From Russula earlei (lineage: Eukaryota > Basidiomycota > Agaricomycetes > Russulales > Russulaceae), in assembly GCA_025769875.1 (NCBI GenBank), contig JAGFNK010000477.1:1-39641 (forward strand): 39,641 nt of DNA, given 5' to 3'. A program made the position numbers and the translations under genes. Of the stretch, positions 11,675-39,641 are shown in pieces; position 1 is the stretch's first letter; the number at the start of each line of letters is the position of its first letter. The notes under the pieces were generated by a model, which was not told the origin of the DNA, searched no databases, and saw nothing but the letters and a program-made list of their open reading frames with translations.

Positions 11675-13963
11675 CTAATTGAGTGGAATCTGGTCCCAAT
11701 ATTGAATCTGGAATGATGGTGTAGTAGTAGTACTGTATGGTGCAGTACTGTAAGAGTGTTGCAAAGGCAGCTGTGCAAATGGTTGTGCCAGTGAGGGTCC
11801 TATTGATGAGGCAAGGGACGACGAGGAAGGATAGTGATTATTACTACTACGTCGTCTGCCATAAAGTCCCACAAATCGTTGGTTGTTTTCCAACTCAGGA
11901 TGTGCAACAAGTTGCTCTTTGATCCGTGTGGTGAGTTCAGACGCGGTGCCCTCCATTGAGAGCTCGAGAGCACCTGCAATCATCATAAGGTCTTCCTTGC
12001 GCTTGTATGATGAAAAAGAATTGTCAAAAACCTTTGAAACAGTGCCTTCACTAATTCGTATAGCACGAGCCGAATCTTCAGTAGCTTTCTCAGCGCGTTT
12101 TTTTGTTTCTTTTCTCTCCCGGTTAATTCGATCTCGTTCGTCTGCTTCAAACGCCTCCTTCAGCTCGGGATGTGTAACAAACTGGGCCTTGATCTTTGTC
12201 AAAGCATGAGGTCTTGTCTTTTGCTGATTTGCCAACTTCACGCGCAGATCGTTGGCCTCTCGCTGAGCAATTGTGCAGTGTGCATTTGCCGCACTCAATT
12301 GCGATGCTTGCATAATCACAGTTTGGGAAAGGACCGAAACTTCGTGACGAAGTGATTGTATTTTGGAAATCAGCTCCTCACGGCTCCGTGTTTGATCTTG
12401 GAGCACAGAGACAGCTTGGTGATCAGAAAGAATCCCCTCCATGTTCTGTGCCGAAGACGCGCGCGTGATCATCGCATTGCAAGCACATAAGTGAGGGTCA
12501 GTCCCAGTCGTTGAGGACGTTGAGGATTTGTGGCCGCTGGTCACGTCCCTAGCACCTCCCTCCAAGTCCGAGGCAATATAATCAGTGTCACTAGTTTCAG
12601 AACTAAGATCCGAACTGACTGCTGGAGGTGAGGTTGGAACCTCCATCAGGTACGAAGAGGGGAAGTGTGATGAAGATGATGATGCCTTGCTAGGTGCAAA
12701 GTCTTCTTCAGTGAAGACCGACGGATTGAGGGGCCAGATTCTGGACTTGCGGAACGCGTTCTGAATGAGGTCCGGGGTAACAACTTTACGAATAACCATG
12801 TATTCATGGATAACATTATAGCGTGTGATCTTGATGCCTTCGGCGAGGCGGCGGTCACAATGCGATGACCACGCACGTTGGACTGGTGCGAAAACCAACA
12901 CATCAAGGGGTTGAAGCTTGTGTGTAGTTTTCGAAGGGAGGCAGAAGAGTACAATCTTATTGTCATATGCAAGTTGCTGCATGGCTGGGGTCTCATGTGA
13001 GTTGTGCCCGTCAAAGGTCAATACGATCGGTTTGTCATTAACACGATGAGTAGCAGCAACCGGAATGAACACAGATTGGAACCACTGCTCGCATATTTCA
13101 TGATCTGTCCATCCAGAAGGGGATGTTGCAACACTGTGAAGGTGAAATCAGTTTATGCCGCCAAAATGCCAGATTGAATCTCACCTTCCGACACCCTCCA
13201 AATCCTGGCAGTCAGGCAGCGGGCCCTCTGAGAGAACAAATCCTGATGGCATGAGAGATCCTGCTGCCGAAATGCATTCAATGATGGAGACAAGCTCCAG
13301 ACTGTCGCTCTTGATGCGATATCGCTGCTTCCGGTCTTTCATGAATAGATACTTTTTTCCATTATTTTTACGGCCGCCTCCCATCTGGATTCCCTTCTCG
13401 TCCATATTCCATTGATGTTCCGGTGGTATCCCGTCATAAGTGTCCACCAGTTCCTGTAGTTTTGCAAAGTAGTCATGGACTACTGTCCTATTAAAGTTTT
13501 TCGCGCGCTTTGGATCCAACCCACTTGCTTTCGAGAAAGTCAGACTGGAGTTGCGTTTAATGAACCGATAATGCCAGTTTATTCCAGGGTAGTGGCTAGA
13601 TAGGTCCAGAGCATGAGCCCGCAGTGCCTTTTGATCCAAAGGCATCGCCTCTGCGGACAGCTGGTCACACCAATCTAGCAATGCCTTTTCCTGGGCCGGC
13701 TTGAGAAGCTGGCCATCCTGGTGAGCTTCCTGACGTGACTTATGTTTCCCAGAAGCTCTATCTTGTAGCGTCTGGCGTGAAACCTTGGAAAGCATAAGAT
13801 TTCGACTTATTGGCCATGTATGGAATGCACTGACATCATGGGCCAGTGCCGCGCGAGTAAATGATCGATAGATCCCATTGCGGTAGTCACTCAATGCAGC
13901 CTGTAGCCGCTGCTCATACGTATGGTCTTGTGCTGGCCGACTGGACCGCCTGTAACATGGCAT
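11675..13963 (-). CDS. pogo-type transposase (745 aa, one intron)
   Basis: Minus strand: exon 1 13963-13185, a 51-bp GTGAGA...CACAG intron (13134-13184), exon 2 13133-11675. The joined frame is open. The N-terminal region (about residues 15-150) has the helix-turn-helix and CENP-B-type layout of pogo/Tigger proteins. The DDE domain shows WNMDEKG (D188), LTFDGHNSH (D301) and HKLQPLDVL (D337), a DDD triad with 35 residues between the last two. A long C-terminal extension follows, with a heptad-rich predicted coiled coil (about 510-560) and a Lys/Arg/Glu-rich region, then a Ser/Gln/Thr-rich tail. The extension is larger than in classical pogo proteins and may serve dimerisation; that is inference. 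All catalytic residues are present. Confidence 0.9.
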
Positions 13964-25607: not shown

Positions 25608-26330
25608 ATTCGCCCATTCACGTGCGATCGCAATCGCTGCCTCGATGCATGCCTCGCTACAGTTGTAAATAGTTGTATCATGTCATGTTTTCAGCTGTAG
25701 AGCAAATGTAATCTTATCATGCTTGGGGTCGGCACCCCACAATGTGAAATGAAACCCAATTATTTGGCTGCCTCTAGATACAGTACATGAGGTTCTGATG
25801 TCCAAGTTTCAAGGCAATCCATTGAGAAATAGTTGAGATATGGCTGTTCGAAATTTCGCACACAGATCGGCACCCAAAATTCGAAACTTCAAGAACTGAA
25901 TATTAGGCTCCCATATTTTAGTTGCACCTAGATACAGTATATAAGGTTCTACTTTCCAGGTTTCAAGGCAATCTATTGAGAAATGGTATGGCAGTTTGAA
26001 ATTTCACACTCAGATTGCACCCAAAAATTGAAACTTCAAGAACTGATAATTATGCCCCAACTCTTGGGCTGCACCTAGATACAGGACATGAGATCCCACT
26101 GTTGAAGTTTCAAGTAAATCTGTTGAGAAACAGTTGAGATATGGCAGTTCAAAGTTTTGCACTCATGTCAGCACCCGAAAATTGACATCTCAAGAACTGA
26201 ATATTAGACTCCCATATTTTCGCTGCACCTAGATATAGTATATAAGGTTCTACTGGCAAAATTTCAAGGCAATCTGTTGAGAAACTGTTGAGATATAGCA
26301 GTTTTAATTTCACACTTGAAATGACAAATG
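25608..26330 (-). repeat. Right inverted arm with tandem units of about 150 bp
   Basis: Partner of 19786-21380. From 25737 outward it shows nearly four consecutive diverged units, each with a CTGCACCTAGATACAG word, TTTCAAGGCAATC, GTTGAGATATGG and TTCAAGAACTGA. Long TIRs built of internal repeats recall foldback-type elements. The outer end at about 26330 has no obvious duplication that I can pair with the left side. Confidence 0.82.
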
Positions 26331-30271: not shown

Positions 30272-30535
30272 TGTTACGAACCAAGGCCAAGTCCTGGCCG
30301 AAGATTGTCCTATTTTACTCAAGAAGAACCTCTCTCACTTTGCATTGCCGACTCCCTTCCATTTTCTGGGCTATCCCCCCTGCGGTACAAGATATTGCTA
30401 TTGCAAAGGCACTATAACACGACCAGGCACCAGTTTCCTAATCGGGTAATCATCGCGTGGCAGCCACATGGCCACTCAGCCACCATGGACCCGAAACAGT
30501 GGCACAAACTCTTAGAAACTGTTGCATAAATCATC

Positions 30536-30636
30536 TGACGTCATCAAGGCTCCAATGACATCATGGCTGACTGAGCGACTCCACAGTGACCTCATAGGCT
30601 CACTAAGCGCTCCACAGTGACATCATAATGATGTCA
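30536..30636 (+). promoter_or_regulatory. Cluster of CRE/bZIP-like sites in U3
   Basis: TGACGTCA at 30536-30543, CAATGACATCATGG shortly after, and the perfect 19-bp palindrome TGACATCATAATGATGTCA at 30618-30636. These match ATF/CREB-type bZIP half sites. They lie about 140-240 bases upstream of the TATA box, where U3 enhancers are expected, and recur in the 3' LTR (from 39381). Confidence 0.55.
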
Positions 30637-30772
30637 TCGCTCCACAATGATCAGTAATGCGCTCAGTAAGCCTGAAAGTTGACACAAGCAAGTTTATGCC
30701 TCTGTAGTCCTATTGGATGGTACCAAAGAGTCTAGAATAGTCCCAGTGCTTTGTAATCGACCCTGTATACTG

Positions 30773-30780
30773 TATATAAG
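30773..30780 (+). promoter_or_regulatory. TATA box of 5' LTR
   Basis: TATATAAG, followed about 20-40 bases later by the probable transcription start. In the 3' LTR the same place reads TATATAG, one A fewer. Confidence 0.7.
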
Positions 30781-31130
30781 CCCCAATGAAGCATGGCAGT
30801 CGTCAGACTGTCCATTTGTGATACTCTCCACTTCCTGGGTACTCCCCTGCGACTGCTCAGTCTAAAGCCTTCCCTCGTCTTCAAGGTACTCTTCAACGAC
30901 CGCCTTGTTTAAAGCCCCTCGCTGCACTGGCCTCTACTCTTCGCCTCTGCCTCTTGCAACACATACCAGTCCCCATCTGGTATCTTCTAGTCGTTTGGCT
31001 CGTCCTCCTGTTCAACGCCGTTTACGCCGCGTACCATCTGTTCCGACCCCTGCCCACCTGCTCCTGAGTCCTTAGTGATCAGCAGTACGTGTCTTGACAT
31101 CTGGACAGTCTCTCATCATTCTTGTATTGA

Positions 31131-32069
31131 CCAGCCAACGCTCAAGTGTCTACTCCCAACTCCCCCACTCTTGTCAATACCTCCCTGCGTCTCCCTTCTC
31201 CTCTCCAGCCCACTCCACGCACCGCTCTTCGCATCCTCACTGAAGACGTCGACCCGGTCGACACATCCTCACCCCTCAGCCTCTTGTACTCCCCAACGGC
31301 TCCCCCATCGTCTCCTACCACTGTCCAGCCTATCCCAGACAACTTTGTCCCTGTCGGCACTCCCCCTCCAGCGCAGAACGAGCAACAGCAAGCGGACCGT
31401 CCTCCCTTACCTGAAGGCTTCCTCGACCGTCCCCCCTGCACAGTATTTCGCTTCCATCCGCACCAGTACTTCGTCCTCCCTACCACCAATCGTCGCCAGG
31501 AGCAGTGGCGTCCCCTCCACGACTTGAATCATCAAGACTACCTTGGACGCATCCCTACCTCAGACCAGTTAGCTCGTCGCGCATTCACAGACACCTTCAC
31601 TACCGCCTTTCGTGCACGCATCGTCCACACTTTTGCGGTAGAACCCTCCAACACTGCCCTTGCCACCCAGTACAATCTCACCCCCTTCGGCATCTGCTCC
31701 AACGTCGGGATATACGCCCCGGACGCTGACTTTCCCCTCGGACGCATCGCTTACATTTTTAACACCTCGTTATTTAGGAAACTACTTACCTTGCCTGCTA
31801 TTTACCGCCCTGCTTACGAGGGCTCGTTTTGCTTATCTATCGTACACGACTTCTTGGACGGACGTCTCGCTTTCGCATACGGCTACTTACACTTCGAGGA
31901 GAACAGTAACCGCGTGTCCCTACGTCACTATTCGACTTATACAGTCGACACCATCCGCTTTAACCCCCAGCTACTTCGCTTTTGCTTTACGCCTCGTATT
32001 CCCCTTAACCCTCTCGAAATAATTGAGAGGTACCAGCTCGAAACCATAGATCTTGCGCACGGTTCTTAA
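31131..32069 (+). CDS. Leader ORF 1 of the chromovirus, no Met codon (about 312 codons)
   Basis: The frame is open from after the stop at 31128 to TAA at 32067 without a single ATG; a GTG at 31146 is a possible but unproven start. The N-terminal third is Pro/Ser/Thr-rich. The rest looks like folded protein, with aromatic and charged residues (RFHPHQYFVLP, FCLSIVHDFLDGRLAFAYGY). No domain is recognised. Right after the stop two AATAAAG signals follow (32097-32115), so a short transcript could end here. An open frame this long is unlikely by chance, so coding is probable, but initiation is unexplained. It could be translated from a non-AUG codon, or an exon might be spliced to it from elsewhere. 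Confidence 0.5.
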   Translation, partial: PANAQVSTPNSPTLVNTSLRLPSPLQPTPRTALRILTEDVDPVDTSSPLSLLYSPTAPPSSPTTVQPIPDNFVPVGTPPPAQNEQQQADRPPLPEGFLDRPPCTVFRFHPHQYFVLPTTNRRQEQWRPLHDLNHQDYLGRIPTSDQLARRAFTDTFTTAFRARIVHTFAVEPSNTALATQYNLTPFGICSNVGIYAPDADFPLGRIAYIFNTSLFRKLLTLPAIYRPAYEGSFCLSIVHDFLDGRLAFAYGYLHFEENSNRVSLRHYSTYTVDTIRFNPQLLRFCFTPRIPLNPLEIIERYQLETIDLAHGS

Positions 32070-32096
32070 AAAGTAAGAACCACCCTTGTAACGCTT

Positions 32097-32115
32097 CAAT
32101 AAAGATCAATAAAGA
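32097..32115 (+). terminator. Tandem AATAAAG polyadenylation-like signals after leader ORF 1
   Basis: CAATAAAGATCAATAAAGAT, two copies 11 bases apart, 28 bases after the ORF 1 stop. They may end a subgenomic transcript; if used constitutively they would stop genomic RNA synthesis, so they are probably conditional or inactive. Confidence 0.4.
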
Positions 32116-33053
32116 TCCTTTCTTGTTTTAACTAAAGTGCCACGAGAATACGCCTTAGAAGAAGTCGAAGAAGAAGACGCTATTACTCGACACATCTTAA
32201 ACTTAAATCATTATCGAACTTGGACCTCCGTCGCATTCCCTGTCACCACTTTAACCAACTTACACGACGTACCAGGAGTTGAACCACCTCACGAAGATTT
32301 CCCCCATCTTATTGTTAAAGAGTTCCTTGAAGTCTTGCCTTTGGACAACTCTTAAGCCACGACGAACACGCACTATATCTTGAAACCCTTAGTCGACTTC
32401 TACCTCCAGCACGACAACAACTATTATATTGGCACCTTGCTCAAGCAAAGAACATCCAAGGACAACCAGTTGACTACCAATCCTTACGCGCCAGTGAATT
32501 AAACCTCTGGACCAGAGTCATTCAACCACGCCACCACATTATTATCCACTCCTTGAGAACAGGATACCGCTTGTTCTACTTAGGTTGGACATACATCAGC
32601 TACTATCGTCTCACTGTCCAGTTCTACCACCTACGCCTCAACAGAATACAAAGGGAAAACCAATCTTACGTCCAACTTGCGGTTGTACCAGGAATACACA
32701 ACACCTTCGATTGGGAAACTAACTCGTGGTTGTACGACGCAGACTATAATCAACCTTGGGCAATTACCAGCCCAGACGCCTCATATACTGGTCCCCCTGC
32801 ATACTATTCTGTCCCAGCAATCCTAGAAGCCTCAAGTCTCGCCCCTCGACCCCTCACACCGATTCAGACCACTGTCCCAACTAGTCAAGAACGTTGGTCT
32901 GCCAGCACAGAAGATACTGAGTCAAATCCGTGGACAGCAAGGTGTAACTGCAAAACAGAGTATTGCACGTGCAACTTTCGACCAGACACACCTCCTACTC
33001 CTGACGGAATTACCTTGTGGACGCCAGGCGATTACCACCTCCCCATTCGATAA
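32113..33053 (+). pseudogene. Leader ORF 2 of the chromovirus, Met-free, one frameshift
   Basis: The first part (32113-32355) reads REYALEEVEEEDAITRHIL...IVKEFLEVLPL. A one-base shift near 32343 leads into SHDEHALYLETLSRLLPPAR...LNLWTRVIQ and on to GYRLFYLGWTYISYYRL, ending in CNCKTEYCTC and a Pro/Thr-rich tail at 33053. There is no methionine anywhere. The composition is that of a real protein, with a possible small zinc-binding CxC...CxC cluster near the C-terminus (about 32946-32970). No family is recognised. Confidence 0.42.
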
Positions 33054-33065
33054 ATCTGGCTCCTC

Positions 33066-33638
33066 GACACAGGAGACGCGCGTCATCCCAACGACCCCCT
33101 GAGAGAGAAACAGTTCCCAACGCAAGAGGATTTCTTGTTGAAAGACCATTACCTCCTACCCCTCCTGACGCCTACGTACCCTTGTTTACCAATCGTATTC
33201 CTACCCCTGTTATACCTATCCAACCCTTTGCATCACCCCTTGTTGAATCCCCTGATAGTGCCGATCTTAGGAAGTACTGATTTACACTGTTATCTACCAG
33301 AACAATCCTTCTTAGCATTAAACCTACCTACGCGTTCAAGGAGAGAGTTAATTGAATTCAAGAATTATTGTACCCAAGCTTGGCATCAACGACTGACACA
33401 CTTTATAGTTTACAAGCACCCCACCAAGGAAATAAGTGACTTTGCCATCTCTCCAGCAGAATTTGAAGGATATCTGTGGAAAACCCGAGTAGTTCTAACA
33501 CAAAGCAGCATTACTGAAGAATACTCCCGAATCCAATTAAGAAAACATCAAGGAAGACCTGATACCATTCGACTAAAGCCAGCCTACACCATTGCATATC
33601 CTTGGAACAACGGCCATTGGACTATAACAGTCGTCTAG
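33066..33638 (+). pseudogene. Leader ORF 3 of the chromovirus, Met-free, frameshifted
   Basis: The N-terminal part lies in one frame (VERPLPPTPPDAYVPLF..., stop at 33280). The rest lies in another (YLPEQSFLALNLPTRSRRELIEFKNYC...AYPWNNGHWTITVV, stop at 33638). No ATG is present. The C-terminal 110 residues look globular. It ends five bases before the gag ATG. No family is recognised. Confidence 0.4.
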
Positions 33639-33642
33639 ATCT

Positions 33643-35153
33643 ATGAGCACTAGGAGAGACATCACTGACGAAGAAGAAAATCTAATCCCACTCCTATTTG
33701 AAAACCTCAGTTACGACACCCAAGATCACTGTTACCGAGGAAAATTTGCAGGCACACCTATTATCAACCACGGAAATCTTTCTGACACTTGGTTATACGA
33801 AGACGATAACGACGAAGTTACCACCGAACAACTTAAAGCGGCAGCCCCAGGAGCAGAAAACGTTCAAGACTTCAACCCCTATAACTATCACAGGCCTCTT
33901 CCTAGACAGACCAGTCAAGTGGAGCCGTTCTAGAAGACATTGGGTTTACTATAACAATCGAGAAGTCGATTTCTCAGCCAGAACACCTCAAGAAGTTACC
34001 GCTATCCTAGGAACTGCTCAGAGCACTCGAAGCACCACTCCAGGACCTTCTACTCGGCGTAATACCCAACAACCTACTCCTCATACAACTAGCAACGTAC
34101 CACAAGCAGTCCCTCGAACGCTCACTCCAACTAGAATCCAACTACAAGGTTCAGCCCCACCTATTGTTACAGCTACAACAACTCAGAATCCCACCATGTC
34201 AAGCAATCCACGCCTTGTCGGAACAGCACCAGAACCCTTTGACGGAAAGGCTGATAACGCAGAAGCCTTTTGGGCAGCTTTGGCCAATTATTATTACATC
34301 AATGGCGACTCCTTTACAGATGAAAGCAAGAAAGTTGCCGCTGCACTAACCCACTTTAAAGTAGGAACACCCGCCGGAGCATGGGCTAGAGAACAAACCA
34401 CCAAGGCTATGGCTCGTACCGTAGCAGACTATGGGTCATGGGACGACTTCAAGAAAGCCTTTGCCGATCATTTTATCCCTGCAGAAGCAGAGTTGGCCTC
34501 CGCTAATACCATGCACACCTATTATCAAGGAAAACTACCATTTAATGAATGGTATCAGAAATGGTCAGCACCACGCATCACGAGCTACCACCGATGAAAG
34601 AACAAAGATGTACGCATTTAGGAAGAACATCAACCCGGCCTTACATCAGAAAATACTGGGAATCACACCAACACCAACTACGCTTGCAGCCCTTGTCAAA
34701 GCAGCAAGAGAATTCGACAACCTTTTCCACCTATACAACTCCACTGCTTTTCGAGGAGGACGCTCTGTGCGTGCCCGAGGATTGAACACTCAAGGATCAG
34801 ATAATCCATTGGAAATTAACTTGTACCAAGGAGAGCCCAATGAACGACCCTGGGAATCCAGAAGTGAAAGGAAACCCCTCACAGATGCAGAGAAAGAATT
34901 TCGACGCAAGAACAATCTCTGTTATTATTGTGGAAAGAAGAATCATATGGCAAATCAATGTAGAGCAAAGAAAGCAGCTCAAGGACGCCAACGACAAGGA
35001 TCTCGCCCCCAAACAGTCAGAGCTACAACCATCCAAGATGAAAACATCGAACCTGCGCAAGAAGAACCCATTCCTGTTGCTTCACTAACGACTTGGAGAG
35101 AAACACTTGCAGACTCGATCCTCCGCCCAAGATCTGCTCCTATGGATTTTTAA
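33643..35153 (+). pseudogene. gag: gag of the chromovirus, two frameshifts
   Basis: The ATG at 33643 is the first ATG after the LTR R region and opens gag (MSTRRDITDEEENLIPLLFENL). The frame shifts near 33900 into SRRHWVYYNNREVDFSA and again near 34575. The capsid-like retrotransposon gag region is PFDGKADNAEAFWAALANYY...AWARE...WDDFKKAFADHF. The nucleocapsid has one CCHC knuckle, CYYCGKKNHMANQC (about 34918-34960). The stop TAA at 35151 directly follows GATTTT, and pol overlaps in the -1 frame. The two internal frameshifts may be genuine decay or sequence errors. The protein would form the virus-like particle. Confidence 0.82.
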
Positions 35154-38100
35154 TTGGACCCCCTTCTGCACCGAGGAGGGACGCGGTCCAAATCAGTACG
35201 ATACAAAGAGAAATCAATTACCCCAAAGTTTTTACCAAGAATATTCGCTCCCCTTCCATTGCCTTGAAAGTTACCTTAGTAGGGAAGACAAGCGGCAAAG
35301 AAATCGGTGCAAGAGCCCTGCTCGACAGTGGAGCAGAAGGAATGATAATCCATGAACGATTTGCACAAAGACACCACCTGCACCTTCGAACTATGATCAA
35401 ACCCTTGCCAGCACAAAATGTAGACGGAACACAAAATGCCAATGGACTAATACGCTTTAGCACCATCCAAAGACTTCGCATTCAAGCGCACACAGGCGCC
35501 ACTCATGACGAACAAGCAGAATTCCTTGTCACTAACATTGGAGATCACGACATTATCTTAGGAACAGATTGGCTACGACACCACAACCCAGATATTGATT
35601 GGGCAAATGATACAATCACACTGAGGAACTGCCCCCGAACTTGCCTTACCACACACCCAAGCATAACCATTGCATCTGCATCTGGAACGCGGAATTACCA
35701 AATACAAGCGCTTACTTTCCCTGAAGAAGAAGAACCCGAGTTTACGGACATTGCTGCACTAATCTTCCCAGATACTGAAGGACCATTGAACCCATGTGTT
35801 GACGAACAAATCCACGATGCGTTTAGCCCAATAACAATCAACATAAGAGCCAAATCAACCACAGCTACCAAGCTAGCCAATGCGGAAACACCCCCTAAGA
35901 CATTAGACGAACTTATCCCCGCCCAATTCTTGAAATGGCGAAAGGTTTTCGATGAACAAGCTTCTCAACGCCTTCCTGCTCACCAACCATGGGACCATGC
36001 AATCAATCTAAAACCAGGGATCGCCCGACGCGATTCTGGCATTTATCGACTTACTCCCAAGGAACTACAAGCCCTAAAAGAATACTTAGACGAACATTTG
36101 AAAAGAGGCACAATCCGACCATCAAAAGCAGCTATTGCCAGCCCATTCTTCTTTGTAGAAAAGAAAGGAGGAAATCTACGACCAGTGCAAGACTACAGAG
36201 CCCTGAATACAGCAACTGTCAAAGACGCGTATCCACTACCCTTGATTCCTGAATTAATTGACAAACTCCAAGGAGCCCAATACTTTACCAAGTTTGACGT
36301 ACGATGGGGATACAACAATATTCGCCTCAGAGAGGGCGATGAACACCTCGCAGCATTCAAGACACCATTAGGACTCTTCGAACCATTGATAATGACATTT
36401 GGTCTCTGCAACGCCCCAGCCACTTTCCAACGCTTTATGAACACCATCCTAGCAAAATACATTGCCACTGAACGAGTGGTTGTTTATCTAGATGATATAC
36501 TAATCATGGCGCAAACCTTGAACGAACTAGACGACTGGACACATAAGGTCCTAAAAACACTCCAAGACCACGACTTATACTTGAAACCAGAGAAATGTGC
36601 TTTCCGACAAACCTCTATTAGTTACCTAGGCATCAATATCTCCCAAGGACGAATATCCATGGACCAAGACAAGTTAATAGGCATTACAAAGTGGCCTACT
36701 CCGACCAATGTTACGGAAGTACAAGCATTTCTAGGATTCTGCAACTTCTATCGACGATTTATCCACCAATACTCTCGAATAGCACGGCCCTTGTTTAACT
36801 TAACAAAGAAAGAAAACCCCTTCAAGTGGGAAGACGATGAAGAACAAGCATTTCAGAAACTAATCCAAGCATTCACAACGGCCCCAATCCTCATGTTACC
36901 TAACCACACGAAACCCTTTCGACTCATCTGCGATGCAAGTGACTTTGCAGTCGGTGCAATCTTGGAACAACCCGATGAATTTAACAGATATCACCCAGTA
37001 GCCTATTTCTCGAAATCCTTGGACCCCGCACAACGAAATTACATGATCTACGATAAAGAACTCCTTGCTATCGTCTTATCCCTCTGGCACTTCCGACACT
37101 ACCTTGAAGGCGCTACACACCCCATTGATCTATGGACAGACCACAATAACTTGACATACTTCATGACAAAACAGAAACTCACGAGACGACAAGCCCGATG
37201 GGCACTCCTCCTCAGCAATTTCGACTTCACCATCACCCACCACCCAGGAACTATGAACAAAGCAGACGGTCTGTCCAGGCGGCCAGACTTTAAAGAGGGG
37301 ATACAAAACGAAAATGATGGAAAGGTGCTCCTAGATGACAAATTTTTTAAAATTAGAGCAACACGCACCTCTGCTACAGAACCAATCGGCGACCAGGAAC
37401 TTCGACAACAACTACGATCTAGCAAAGACTATGACCCAGAAGTATCTAACGCGTTAGCAATCATTATAAAGAATGGACCAAGGCGACTATCCAAAGGCTT
37501 ACAGGACTGGAACCTTGAAGATGGACTAATACTATTCAAAGGAAAAGTCTATATCCCAAACAACGACACCCTAAGAAAGAAAATTCTAAAACTACACCAC
37601 GACTCCCTTGCCACTGGGCATCCTGGCCAATGGAAAACTTATGAACTAATCAGCCGAAACTATTGGTGGCCAGGAATGCTAACTTATGTCAAAAGTTATG
37701 TAGATGGTTGCGCAATTTGCCAAAGTACCAAGAACCGTCCAAAGACAGAAACACCCCTTGTACCGATTACACCAGCTGGAGAAGTATGGAAAAGCATTAC
37801 TATGGACTTTATCACAGGACCTACCGATTTCACAAGGCTTCGACAGCCTCCTAGTCGTGGTAGATCGATTCAGTAAAGCAATAATCATTACCCCTTGCCA
37901 CAAGACAATCACAGCAGACGAAACAGCGACACTAATCATGAACAATGTCTGGAGAAGAATAGGGCTCCCAACACAAATAATATCGGACAGAGGCCCTCAG
38001 TTCGCAGCAAAAGTCACTCAAGAACTATGGAAGAAGTTAAATGTCAAAGTATCATTAAGCACAGCATATCACCCACAGACAGATGGAGAAACAGAACGAG

Positions 38101-38870
38101 TTAACCAAGAACTAGAACAATACCTACGAATATTTTGCAACCATCAAGCAGACAATTGGGCAGAACTAGTTCCCTTTATGGAGTTCGCACATAATGCCAG
38201 ACAACACAGTGCTACGAACAAACCCCCGTTTGAAGTCTGGTATGGCTTTAACCCAACATTTGCTCCGCCCCTTGCCTTTACATCAAAGTTCCCTTCGATC
38301 CAAGAAAGACTATCAAGACTAAACCAACTCAGAGAAGAAGTAGCTGCCTCCCTGAACCGAGCAACAGAAATCATGAAGCAATCAGGACCTCAATCCTCCA
38401 CATTTCGTTTTAAAGAAGGGGATCAAGTATGGCTGGAAGCCACGAATCTACGAACCACTCACCCAAAAGCAAAACTAGCCCCTCGACGCTATGGGCCATT
38501 CAAAGTCACCACTGCCTATCCAGTAAACGTTCGCCTCGAGCTACCAAAGTCTTGGAAGATACACCCGGTTTTTCACCACTCCCTGATTAAACCTTACAAA
38601 GAAACCATTGCCCATGGTCCTAACTTTTCAAACCCGCCACCAATATTAGTCGAAGGTGAAGAACAATATGAAGTAGAACAGATCCTAAACTCTCGGCTCT
38701 CCCCAAACCGCAAAGGAATCCAATACCTAGTTAAATGGAAAGGGTATACGGTTGCAGAAAATACTTGGGAGCCAGCATCTAACCTATCAAGAGCGCAATC
38801 ACTTGTTAAAGACTTCCATCGGAAATATCCGAAGGCGCTTAGAACAATTCCCACCAGGAGTAACCCCTAA
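35093..38870 (+). pseudogene. pol: pol of the chromovirus, one frameshift before the integrase core
   Basis: Domain order: aspartic protease (ALLDSGAEGM, about codon 78), reverse transcriptase (FDVRWGYNNIRL, FGLCNAPATFQ, YLDD at about 36485), RNase H (CDASDFAVGA, DKELLAIV, WTDHNNLTY, KADGLSRR), integrase zinc finger (HHDSLATGHPG...CAICQ), integrase core (MDFIT, SDRGPQF, TDGETERVNQELEQYL) and a C-terminal chromodomain (YEVEQIL, YLVKWKGY, ENTWEP) ending at 38870. A single extra base at about 37817, inside MDFIT|DLPIS, separates a 927-codon frame from the remaining integrase frame. Otherwise every catalytic residue is present. Chromodomains of such elements target integration to histone marks of heterochromatin. 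The element is intact apart from single-base frame breaks. Confidence 0.9.
35147..35153 (+). promoter_or_regulatory. Possible -1 slippage site at the gag-pol junction
   Basis: Five T (35147-35151) precede and overlap the gag stop: zero frame GAT TTT TAA. A P-site slip by one base back keeps Phe pairing on TTT and turns TAA into TTA, entering the pol frame (GFLIGPPSAP). The overlap of the two frames here is about 60 bases. It is not a classical XXXYYYZ heptamer. Confidence 0.35.
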
Positions 38871-39117: not shown

Positions 39118-39641
39118 TGTTACGAACCAAGGCCAAGTCCTGGCCGAAGATTGTCCTATTTTACTCAAGAAGAACCTCTCTCACTTTGCATTGCCGACTC
39201 CCTTCCATTTTCTGGGCTATCCCCCTGCGGTACAAGATATTGCTATTGCAAAGGCACTATAACACGACCAGGCACCAGTTTCCTAATCGGGTAATCATCG
39301 CGTGGCAGCCACATGGCCACTCAGCCACCATGGACCCGAAACAGCGGCACAAACTCTTAGAAACTGTTGCATAAATCATCTGACGTCATCAAGGCTCCAA
39401 TGACATCATGGCTGACTGAGCGACTCCACAGTGACCTCATAGGCTCACTAAGCGCTCCACAGTGACATCATAATGATGTCATCGCTCCACAATGATCAGT
39501 AATGCGCTCAGTAAGCCTGAAAGTTGACACAAGCAAGTTTATGCCTCTGTAGTCCTATTGGATGGTACCAAAGAGTCTAGAATAGTCCCAGTGCTTTGTA
39601 ATCGACCCTGTATACTGTATATAGCCCCAATGAAGCATGGC
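39118..39641 (+). repeat. 3' LTR of the chromovirus (truncated by window end)
   Basis: The visible 524 bases match 30272-30797 with one substitution (GTGG to GCGG near 39345) and two single-base losses: one C in the run near 39223, and one A in the TATA box (TATATAAG to TATATAG, near 39623). The rest lies outside the window. Confidence 0.95.

Follow-up and report, generated by a model that had tools for sequence, protein, structure and literature searches.

How ribosomes reach gag behind about 2.8 kb of RNA, and how further frames within that RNA are expressed, is the question raised by a retrotransposon of Russula earlei. The window analysed here is a whole stretch of 39,641 nt (contig JAGFNK010000477.1). 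The element is a chromodomain Ty3/gypsy retrotransposon (chromovirus) on the plus strand, extending from 30272 to beyond 39641, as the contig ends inside its 3' long terminal repeat (LTR). Three open reading frames (ORF1 to ORF3) precede gag. The explanation we hold to be probable is a splicing switch: the removal of one of two tiny introns would build the A|UG start codon of ORF1 or ORF2, and the unspliced RNA would be scanned to gag.

ATG is absent upstream of gag

The original prediction had reported 2,847 bases without ATG, and a recount of 30796–33642 on the sense strand also gave zero. The nearest ATGs on either side are those at 30793 and 33643, and the run indeed stops exactly at the gag ATG. 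The second-longest ATG gap of the window is 553 nt (33643–34196). CAT was counted nine times in 31081–31560, where at least nine had been claimed, and 45 times in the whole interval.

The naive expectation of about 44 ATGs was too high. For the predicted leader (30805–33642, 2,838 nt), dinucleotide shuffles gave 22.6 expected ATGs with a minimum of 11 (2,000 shuffles), and ATG was the most depleted trinucleotide. The depletion itself thus holds, and at matched dinucleotides and with CAT frequent it is specific to the strand and not a matter of base composition, as had been proposed. The same-strand controls were unremarkable: 80 ATGs versus 69 expected in gag-pol (34196–38870) and 12 versus 11.5 in U3.

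Three methionine-free frames precede gag

In the reference copy L049 (contig C532), three consecutive methionine-free frames are followed by gag from 33643. Stop to stop, they measure 312 codons (ORF1, 31131–32069), 317 codons (ORF2, 32103–33053) and 210 codons (ORF3, 33005–33638). From its putative A|TG junction, ORF1 has 307 codons (31147–32069) and no further methionine; this frame is backed by genome copies, database relatives and purifying selection. ORF2 has 305 codons from its junction (32138–33053 in L049), and its sole methionine would be the splice-made one. ORF2 and ORF3 were both delimited by copy comparison; their frames overlap, and the ORF3 stop is followed after only 4 nt by the ATG of gag.

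Selection was measured against L049, with CpG changes excluded and each variant counted once. In 21 close copies, the ratios of nonsynonymous to synonymous changes were 0.08, 0.11 and 0.15 for ORF1, ORF2 and ORF3. In four diverged copies (11–14% different from the window over the leader part covered), they were 0.21, 0.15 and 0.21. L046 duplicates L024 and contains a nested insertion, and for these reasons was excluded from this set. The gag N-terminus gave 0.13 (close) and 0.27 (diverged), with few variants. No stop variants were found in the close copies. The ratios therefore argue for constraint at the protein level on each of ORF1 to ORF3, and old copies show some decay. ORF1 had no Pfam match.

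The window copy itself carries two single-nucleotide InDels here. The one in ORF2 (near 32339) differs from all 23 loci compared; the one in ORF3 (near 33273) is absent from most copies and common to L054.

Two tiny introns would create the start codons

The apparent starts of ORF1 and ORF2 are GTG. Both can be read as splice acceptors, AG|TG, each behind an A|GT donor. Predicted intron 1 (31085–31146, plus strand, 62 nt, GTACGT...CTCAAG) was placed by splice pattern and conservation; its removal would join A31084 to TG 31147–31148, giving the AUG of ORF1, and would also delete the LTR end and the primer-binding site. Intron 2 (32073–32137, plus strand, 65 nt, GTAAGA...CTAAAG) was placed by intron-less genomic copies; without it, A32072 meets TG 32138–32139 in the AUG of ORF2. 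The joined flanks read ATCAGC-AUG-UCUACU for ORF1 and UUAAAA-AUG-CCACGA for ORF2, with A at −3 in both. Each single-spliced leader has exactly one ATG before gag.

Intron 2 is exactly missing from two copies, C95 and C465, and from a third, C839, with one A fewer in an A run; all three have ATG at the junction. C465 is 86–91% identical to L049 over the compared piece, and its intron loss is likely a separate event. Spacing across the intron could be read in 48 loci rows with both flanks: 64–69 nt in 42, 0 or −1 in five (C95 twice, C839 twice, C465 once) and partial in one. These rows come from 32 contigs; without C465, which had been searched for as a target, the intron is absent in 2 of 31. 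As the exact loss of a GT...AG stretch marks reverse-transcribed spliced RNA, these copies imply that intron 2 is spliced in RNA that gets reverse-transcribed.

The junction search for intron 2 gave eight matches, among which C95 and C465 are family copies; C839 came from the loci already compared, outside this pattern search. Three matches (C62, C156 and C235) carry GTG instead of ATG. Another three (C337, C47 and C276) were rejected, as the intron flanks do not match.

The splice sites of both introns were compared across 25 copies. For intron 1, 22 copies have the donor AGTACGT and all 25 have the acceptor AGTG; the intron 2 donor AGTAAGA was found in 23 and its acceptor AGTG in 24, the intron-less C95 being one miss in each. 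The pattern AGTANG followed by AGTG at intron distance occurs exactly twice in the leader, directly before ORF1 and directly before ORF2. Leader shuffles gave a mean of 0.10, and two matches in 0.9% of 3,000. On these grounds intron 1 is predicted to be spliced like intron 2.

Predicted transcript start and primer-binding site

The RNA is predicted to start at 30805 because of a TATA box and a 10-nt match to the primer-binding site. The TATA box, TATATAAG (30773–30780, plus strand), lies 32 nt upstream and was kept in all 26 rows that cover it. The predicted RNA 5' end, AGACTGTCCA (30805–30814, plus strand), is the exact complement of the primer-binding site, TGGACAGTCT (31102–31111, plus strand), which begins two nucleotides past the LTR and lies within intron 1. 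Within 30275–33642, it is the longest exact match to the complement of 31100–31130. All 10 pairs were present in 26 of 26 rows covering both sites, two of these rows being one copy; row 27 (L059) stops short of the 5' site and is outside this count.

ATG 30793 stands within the LTR, 12 nt ahead of the predicted start, and ATG 30786 also precedes it. The run without ATG would therefore cover all of the unspliced message as far as gag. For Cryptococcus, the relevant part of PMC7049704 links low translation and decay to upstream AUGs lying over 20 nt away from the transcription start, whereas nearer ones seem to be skipped. If that rule is valid in Russula, it would fit the clearing of ATG from the transcript start onwards.

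RNA folding was otherwise unremarkable (z −1.57 for 30805–31145 and −1.38 for 32000–32240), the exception being the 10-bp pairing of the 5' end with the primer-binding site. A hairpin, GGTTCTTA-AAAAG-TAAGAACC, at 32061–32081 overlaps both the stop codon of ORF1 and the donor of intron 2. It might control the use of that donor.

AUG is avoided in all frames and across close copies

With the proteins held fixed, synonymous-codon shuffles of ORF1 to ORF3 of L049 gave 12.7 expected out-of-frame ATGs (minimum 4 in 5,000 shuffles), and none was observed. Each frame taken singly also had none: 2.6 were expected in ORF1 (P 0.04), 6.9 in ORF2 (zero reached in none of 5,000 shuffles) and 3.2 in ORF3 (P 0.01). 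The gag N-terminus, shuffled by codon as a control, was normal (9 ATGs versus 11.0 expected).

Among the 21 close copies, ATG-creating variants were found at 30 sites: 25 in one copy, five in two and none in more than two. CAT-creating variants were found at 56 sites and in up to 20 of 21 copies; three of the high-frequency sites are perhaps private to the reference L049, and others reach 11–15 copies. Of the 114 ATG triplets aligned in 25 copies, 88 coincide with an ACG in L049, which probably reflects CpG decay. Ten of 23 loci (22 copies) had no ATG at all in the part covered.

An ordinary ATG frequency in other copies, named in the original prediction as a refutation, was hence not seen in the young copies. 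The diverged copies are another matter, with 11 to 44 ATGs, mostly from ACG>ATG decay or within insertions; the counts of L046, L056 and L030 are inflated by insertions. The proposed selection against upstream AUGs, with scanning to gag, draws support from the strand specificity, from the limits of the run at the predicted transcript start and the gag ATG, and from its persistence in other copies and, as regards ORF1, in remote relatives too. The picture of a plain long leader had to be given up: the stretch holds three protein-constrained frames and two tiny introns that make an AUG when removed.

ORF1 relatives outside the element

An ORF1 profile search, which scored the 7,989 candidates with the most shared words, returned at least 43 relatives: two R. 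earlei records and 41 proteins from JGI and ENA metagenomes. The window ORF1 has 83% identity with one R. earlei record and 64% with the other; from one of the two, 286 residues were found in the source genome at 99%. Where pairwise identity was given, the 41 metagenome relatives are 28–45% identical to part of the window ORF1.

After position 1, these 41 relatives have 11 methionines in 14,459 residues, and 31 of them lack it altogether. A set of ten representatives (at 60% identity) contains a single methionine. The pol frame of the window has 12 in 927 residues. The scarcity in such distant relatives therefore indicates that the methionine-poor state of ORF1 is old. Their N-termini read Val-Ser in 23 (all JGI) and Met-Ser in eight (seven ENA, one JGI). 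Val-Ser is the expected reading of AG|TG-TC; in ENA records, a GTG start may be rendered as M.

The R. earlei gene models P0001 and P0002 have a Met and upstream residues outside ORF1, as might be expected if the true start codon is split by an intron. A search with the ORF1 alignment for related DNA loci, using a single peptide pattern each for viral contigs and genome contigs, found none.

Proposed mechanism and alternative explanations

In the splicing switch, the arrangement A|GT...AG|TG would hide the AUG in unspliced RNA. A start codon in an ATG-free RNA could be split only as A|TG, because an AT|GT donor would itself contain ATG. The unspliced RNA would have no AUG before gag, and ribosomes would scan about 2.8 kb to the gag AUG. 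With intron 2 removed, the first AUG would be that of ORF2, behind an AUG-free ORF1. With intron 1 removed, it would be that of ORF1, and the primer site would be lost; such an RNA would be unable to prime its own copying and would act as message only. Both spliced RNAs would be translated. We lean, with less assurance, towards a wider claim: that a widespread group of fungal retroelements has a genomic RNA free of starts up to gag, with accessory starts as A|intron|UG, so that splicing picks the protein and an ORF1 intron holding the primer site separates message from genome.

A reading without splicing would have weak GUG starts for ORF1 and ORF2 (GUG or CUG for ORF3), with most ribosomes leaking to gag, in the manner of rice tungro bacilliform virus (RTBV). 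In RTBV and badnaviruses, leaky scanning passes through ORFs free of internal AUG before the main polyprotein frame, and long ORFs of this kind are its hallmark in the part of PMC5902531 that deals with it. The GTG was kept in 25 of 25 copies for ORF1 and in 24 of 25 for ORF2, the exception being an intron-less copy, and splice-made starts require this conservation equally. Both GTGs follow an A, giving the acceptor AG, 62–65 nt past an A|GT donor, and three copies lack the GT...AG stretch before ORF2 and have ATG instead. GUG starts had been our first reading, which was dropped as C95 lacks exactly GT...AG and has ATG at the junction. We regard leakage past GUG starts as improbable; the start of ORF2 is ATG in the intron-less copies, and the GUG may be used in unspliced RNA. 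Equally improbable, in our view, is the translation of gag from a further spliced RNA, from donor 31085 to an acceptor such as AG 33637–33638, with the lack of ATG serving only ORF2 or the genomic RNA. A TAG does lie 4 nt ahead of the gag ATG, and BARE1 of barley splices a Gag-only message, according to a section of PMC3735527. The avoidance, however, spans ORF2 and ORF3 besides ORF1, and only scanning to gag would need that. A further-spliced gag RNA would lack the primer site, so it would leave no genomic trace.

The short distance between the ORF3 stop and gag and the overlap of the ORF2 and ORF3 frames would also suit a translation of ORF1 to ORF3 in turn, with reinitiation ending at gag and perhaps aided by a leader protein. 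This we consider less probable still. Scanning ribosomes meet internal AUGs and elongating ones are indifferent to them, yet AUG is avoided in all frames, and scanning to gag is therefore favoured over reinitiation. The idea that ATG is missing as a side effect of composition or CpG decay has the G-poor leader in its favour and deserves next to no credence: the dinucleotide-matched expectation and the controls already refute it, and decay makes ATG rather than removing it, as the many ATG triplets at ACG positions illustrate.

Several points weigh against the splicing switch. Splicing was read from genomic sequence alone, the splice pattern was defined only after both introns had been noticed, and gag-pol contains one further match to it (35279, 50 nt). 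The support for intron 1 is a prediction. A search for its intron-less junction (up to three mismatches) gave 15 genome matches, each with three mismatches, versus eight for the backward control; the two that were fetched (C415 and C96) had no alignment to the element or to L049. Because the spliced RNA would lack the LTR end and the primer site, no intron-1-less copy is expected under the model, which is not proof. The switch does not explain ORF3, which has no AG|TG acceptor in frame in L049. Two ORF2–ORF3 fusion junctions were sought in the source genome, and no intron-less family copy was found: the first had no match (control 1) and the second one match with three mismatches (control 1). 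CTG 33056 and GTG 33017, the candidate starts of ORF3, are conserved wherever a copy covers them.

Further points concern the copies and the relatives. The four diverged copies have 44, 21, 27 and 11 ATGs, some within insertions, and stop variants in ORF1, ORF2 and ORF3 (1, 5 and 2), both partly decay. The detailed comparison comprises 26 copies besides the window, of at least 129 places, and is skewed to close ones. The introns of distant relatives are inferred from protein N-termini only, and the ORF2 protein had no database relative (564 candidates, none at E 0.01). Finally, a scan of 2.8 kb would cover roughly three times the distance of 900 nt given for RTBV in the part of PMC5902531 concerned.

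The element, its copies and the rest of the window

The label of chromovirus given in the original prediction was borne out by the domain order between the LTRs: reverse transcriptase, RNase H, integrase and a C-terminal chromodomain. The Pfam E-values were 1.6e-34 (RVT_1), 1.7e-35 (RT_RNaseH), 8.2e-14 (rve) and 2.2e-17 (Chromo). Gag-pol as a whole (33643–38870, plus strand) was assigned by Pfam and comprises Retrotrans_gag, a CCHC knuckle, an aspartyl protease and the domains just named.

The 5' LTR (30272–31099, plus strand, 828 nt, TGTTACG...CTTGACA) was delimited by the 3'-LTR regions of other copies and by the ends read in the sequence. Three of four such regions match from 30272: L039 to 31099, L040 to 31102 and L041, limited by its contig end, to 31091. 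The fourth (L042) had no match to the 5' LTR. The 3' LTR of the window copy (39118–39641, plus strand), recognized by its match to the 5' LTR, is truncated by the contig end; 523 of 524 aligned bases are identical, plus two single-base gaps.

The window copy seems defective despite its near-identical LTRs. Its gag-pol has several frame breaks, and the break in the gag N-terminus is also present in L044. At 37704–37876, the integrase frame looks broken: pol stops in one frame and the integrase goes on in another.

The gag start codon (33643–33645, plus strand) is the first ATG in the unspliced RNA and has T at −3. The next ATG, 34196, has the context CCCACCATG; the gag N-terminus before it (33646–34195) has no ATG versus 2.1 expected. 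ATG 34196 may be a second gag start.

The gag region has at least 40 scored places at 98–100% in the 66.6 Mb genome, and ORF1 has at least the 129 mentioned above, at 82–100% identity, the window's own counted in both. Family copies are nested in or directly adjoin one another, with an LTR beside or within the leader, in L007/L046, L024 (C74), L035/L056 (C902), L037 (C118) and L010/L048 (C1274). Elsewhere in the window, 25755–26284 holds a 229-nt direct repeat pair (spacing 301 nt, 82% identical). Two frames of 465 and 260 aa on the minus strand (11675–13963) presumably resemble a split DDE/pogo-type transposase.

Comparison with known systems

If true, the splicing switch would be a clean natural case of splicing making start codons. 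Over 2.8 kb of coding RNA would have been purged of AUG by selection, methionines included. The element would offer a quantitative test bed for ribosome scanning distance in basidiomycetes, and would show how a single promoter could let a retroelement keep message and genome apart. It would also explain the misplaced starts of these genes in annotation pipelines. The literature searched yielded no LTR retrotransposon with accessory starts that are splice-made from an AUG-free RNA.

Single features have counterparts, taken here from parts of the reports cited. As in RTBV, long AUG-free ORFs (here AUG-free in any frame) lie upstream of the polyprotein on one RNA, and RTBV also splices (P4). The starts in RTBV are AUU for ORF I and AUG for ORF II, within some 900 nt (PMC5902531), whereas here apparently splice-made AUGs are spread over about 2,840 nt of a fungal LTR retrotransposon. 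As in BARE1, splicing would yield a message that differs from the RNA being copied. In BARE1 it creates a stop after gag (PMC3735527), whereas here it would make the starts of upstream ORFs, with the primer site in one intron.

The predicted RNA 5' end is complementary to the primer-binding site as in Tf1/sushi-type elements, and in Tf1 and Tj1 this end serves as primer (PMC4600332). Tj1 is drawn there with Gag, protease, reverse transcriptase and integrase only, whereas the present element has three extra frames ahead of gag. Additional ORFs (aORFs) beside gag-pol, at times upstream of it, are described for plant LTR retrotransposons (PMC7264820); the part of that account considered here mentions neither AUG-free ORFs nor splice-made starts. 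Taken with these likenesses and differences, this looks like a known kind of element with an apparently new way to express extra genes.

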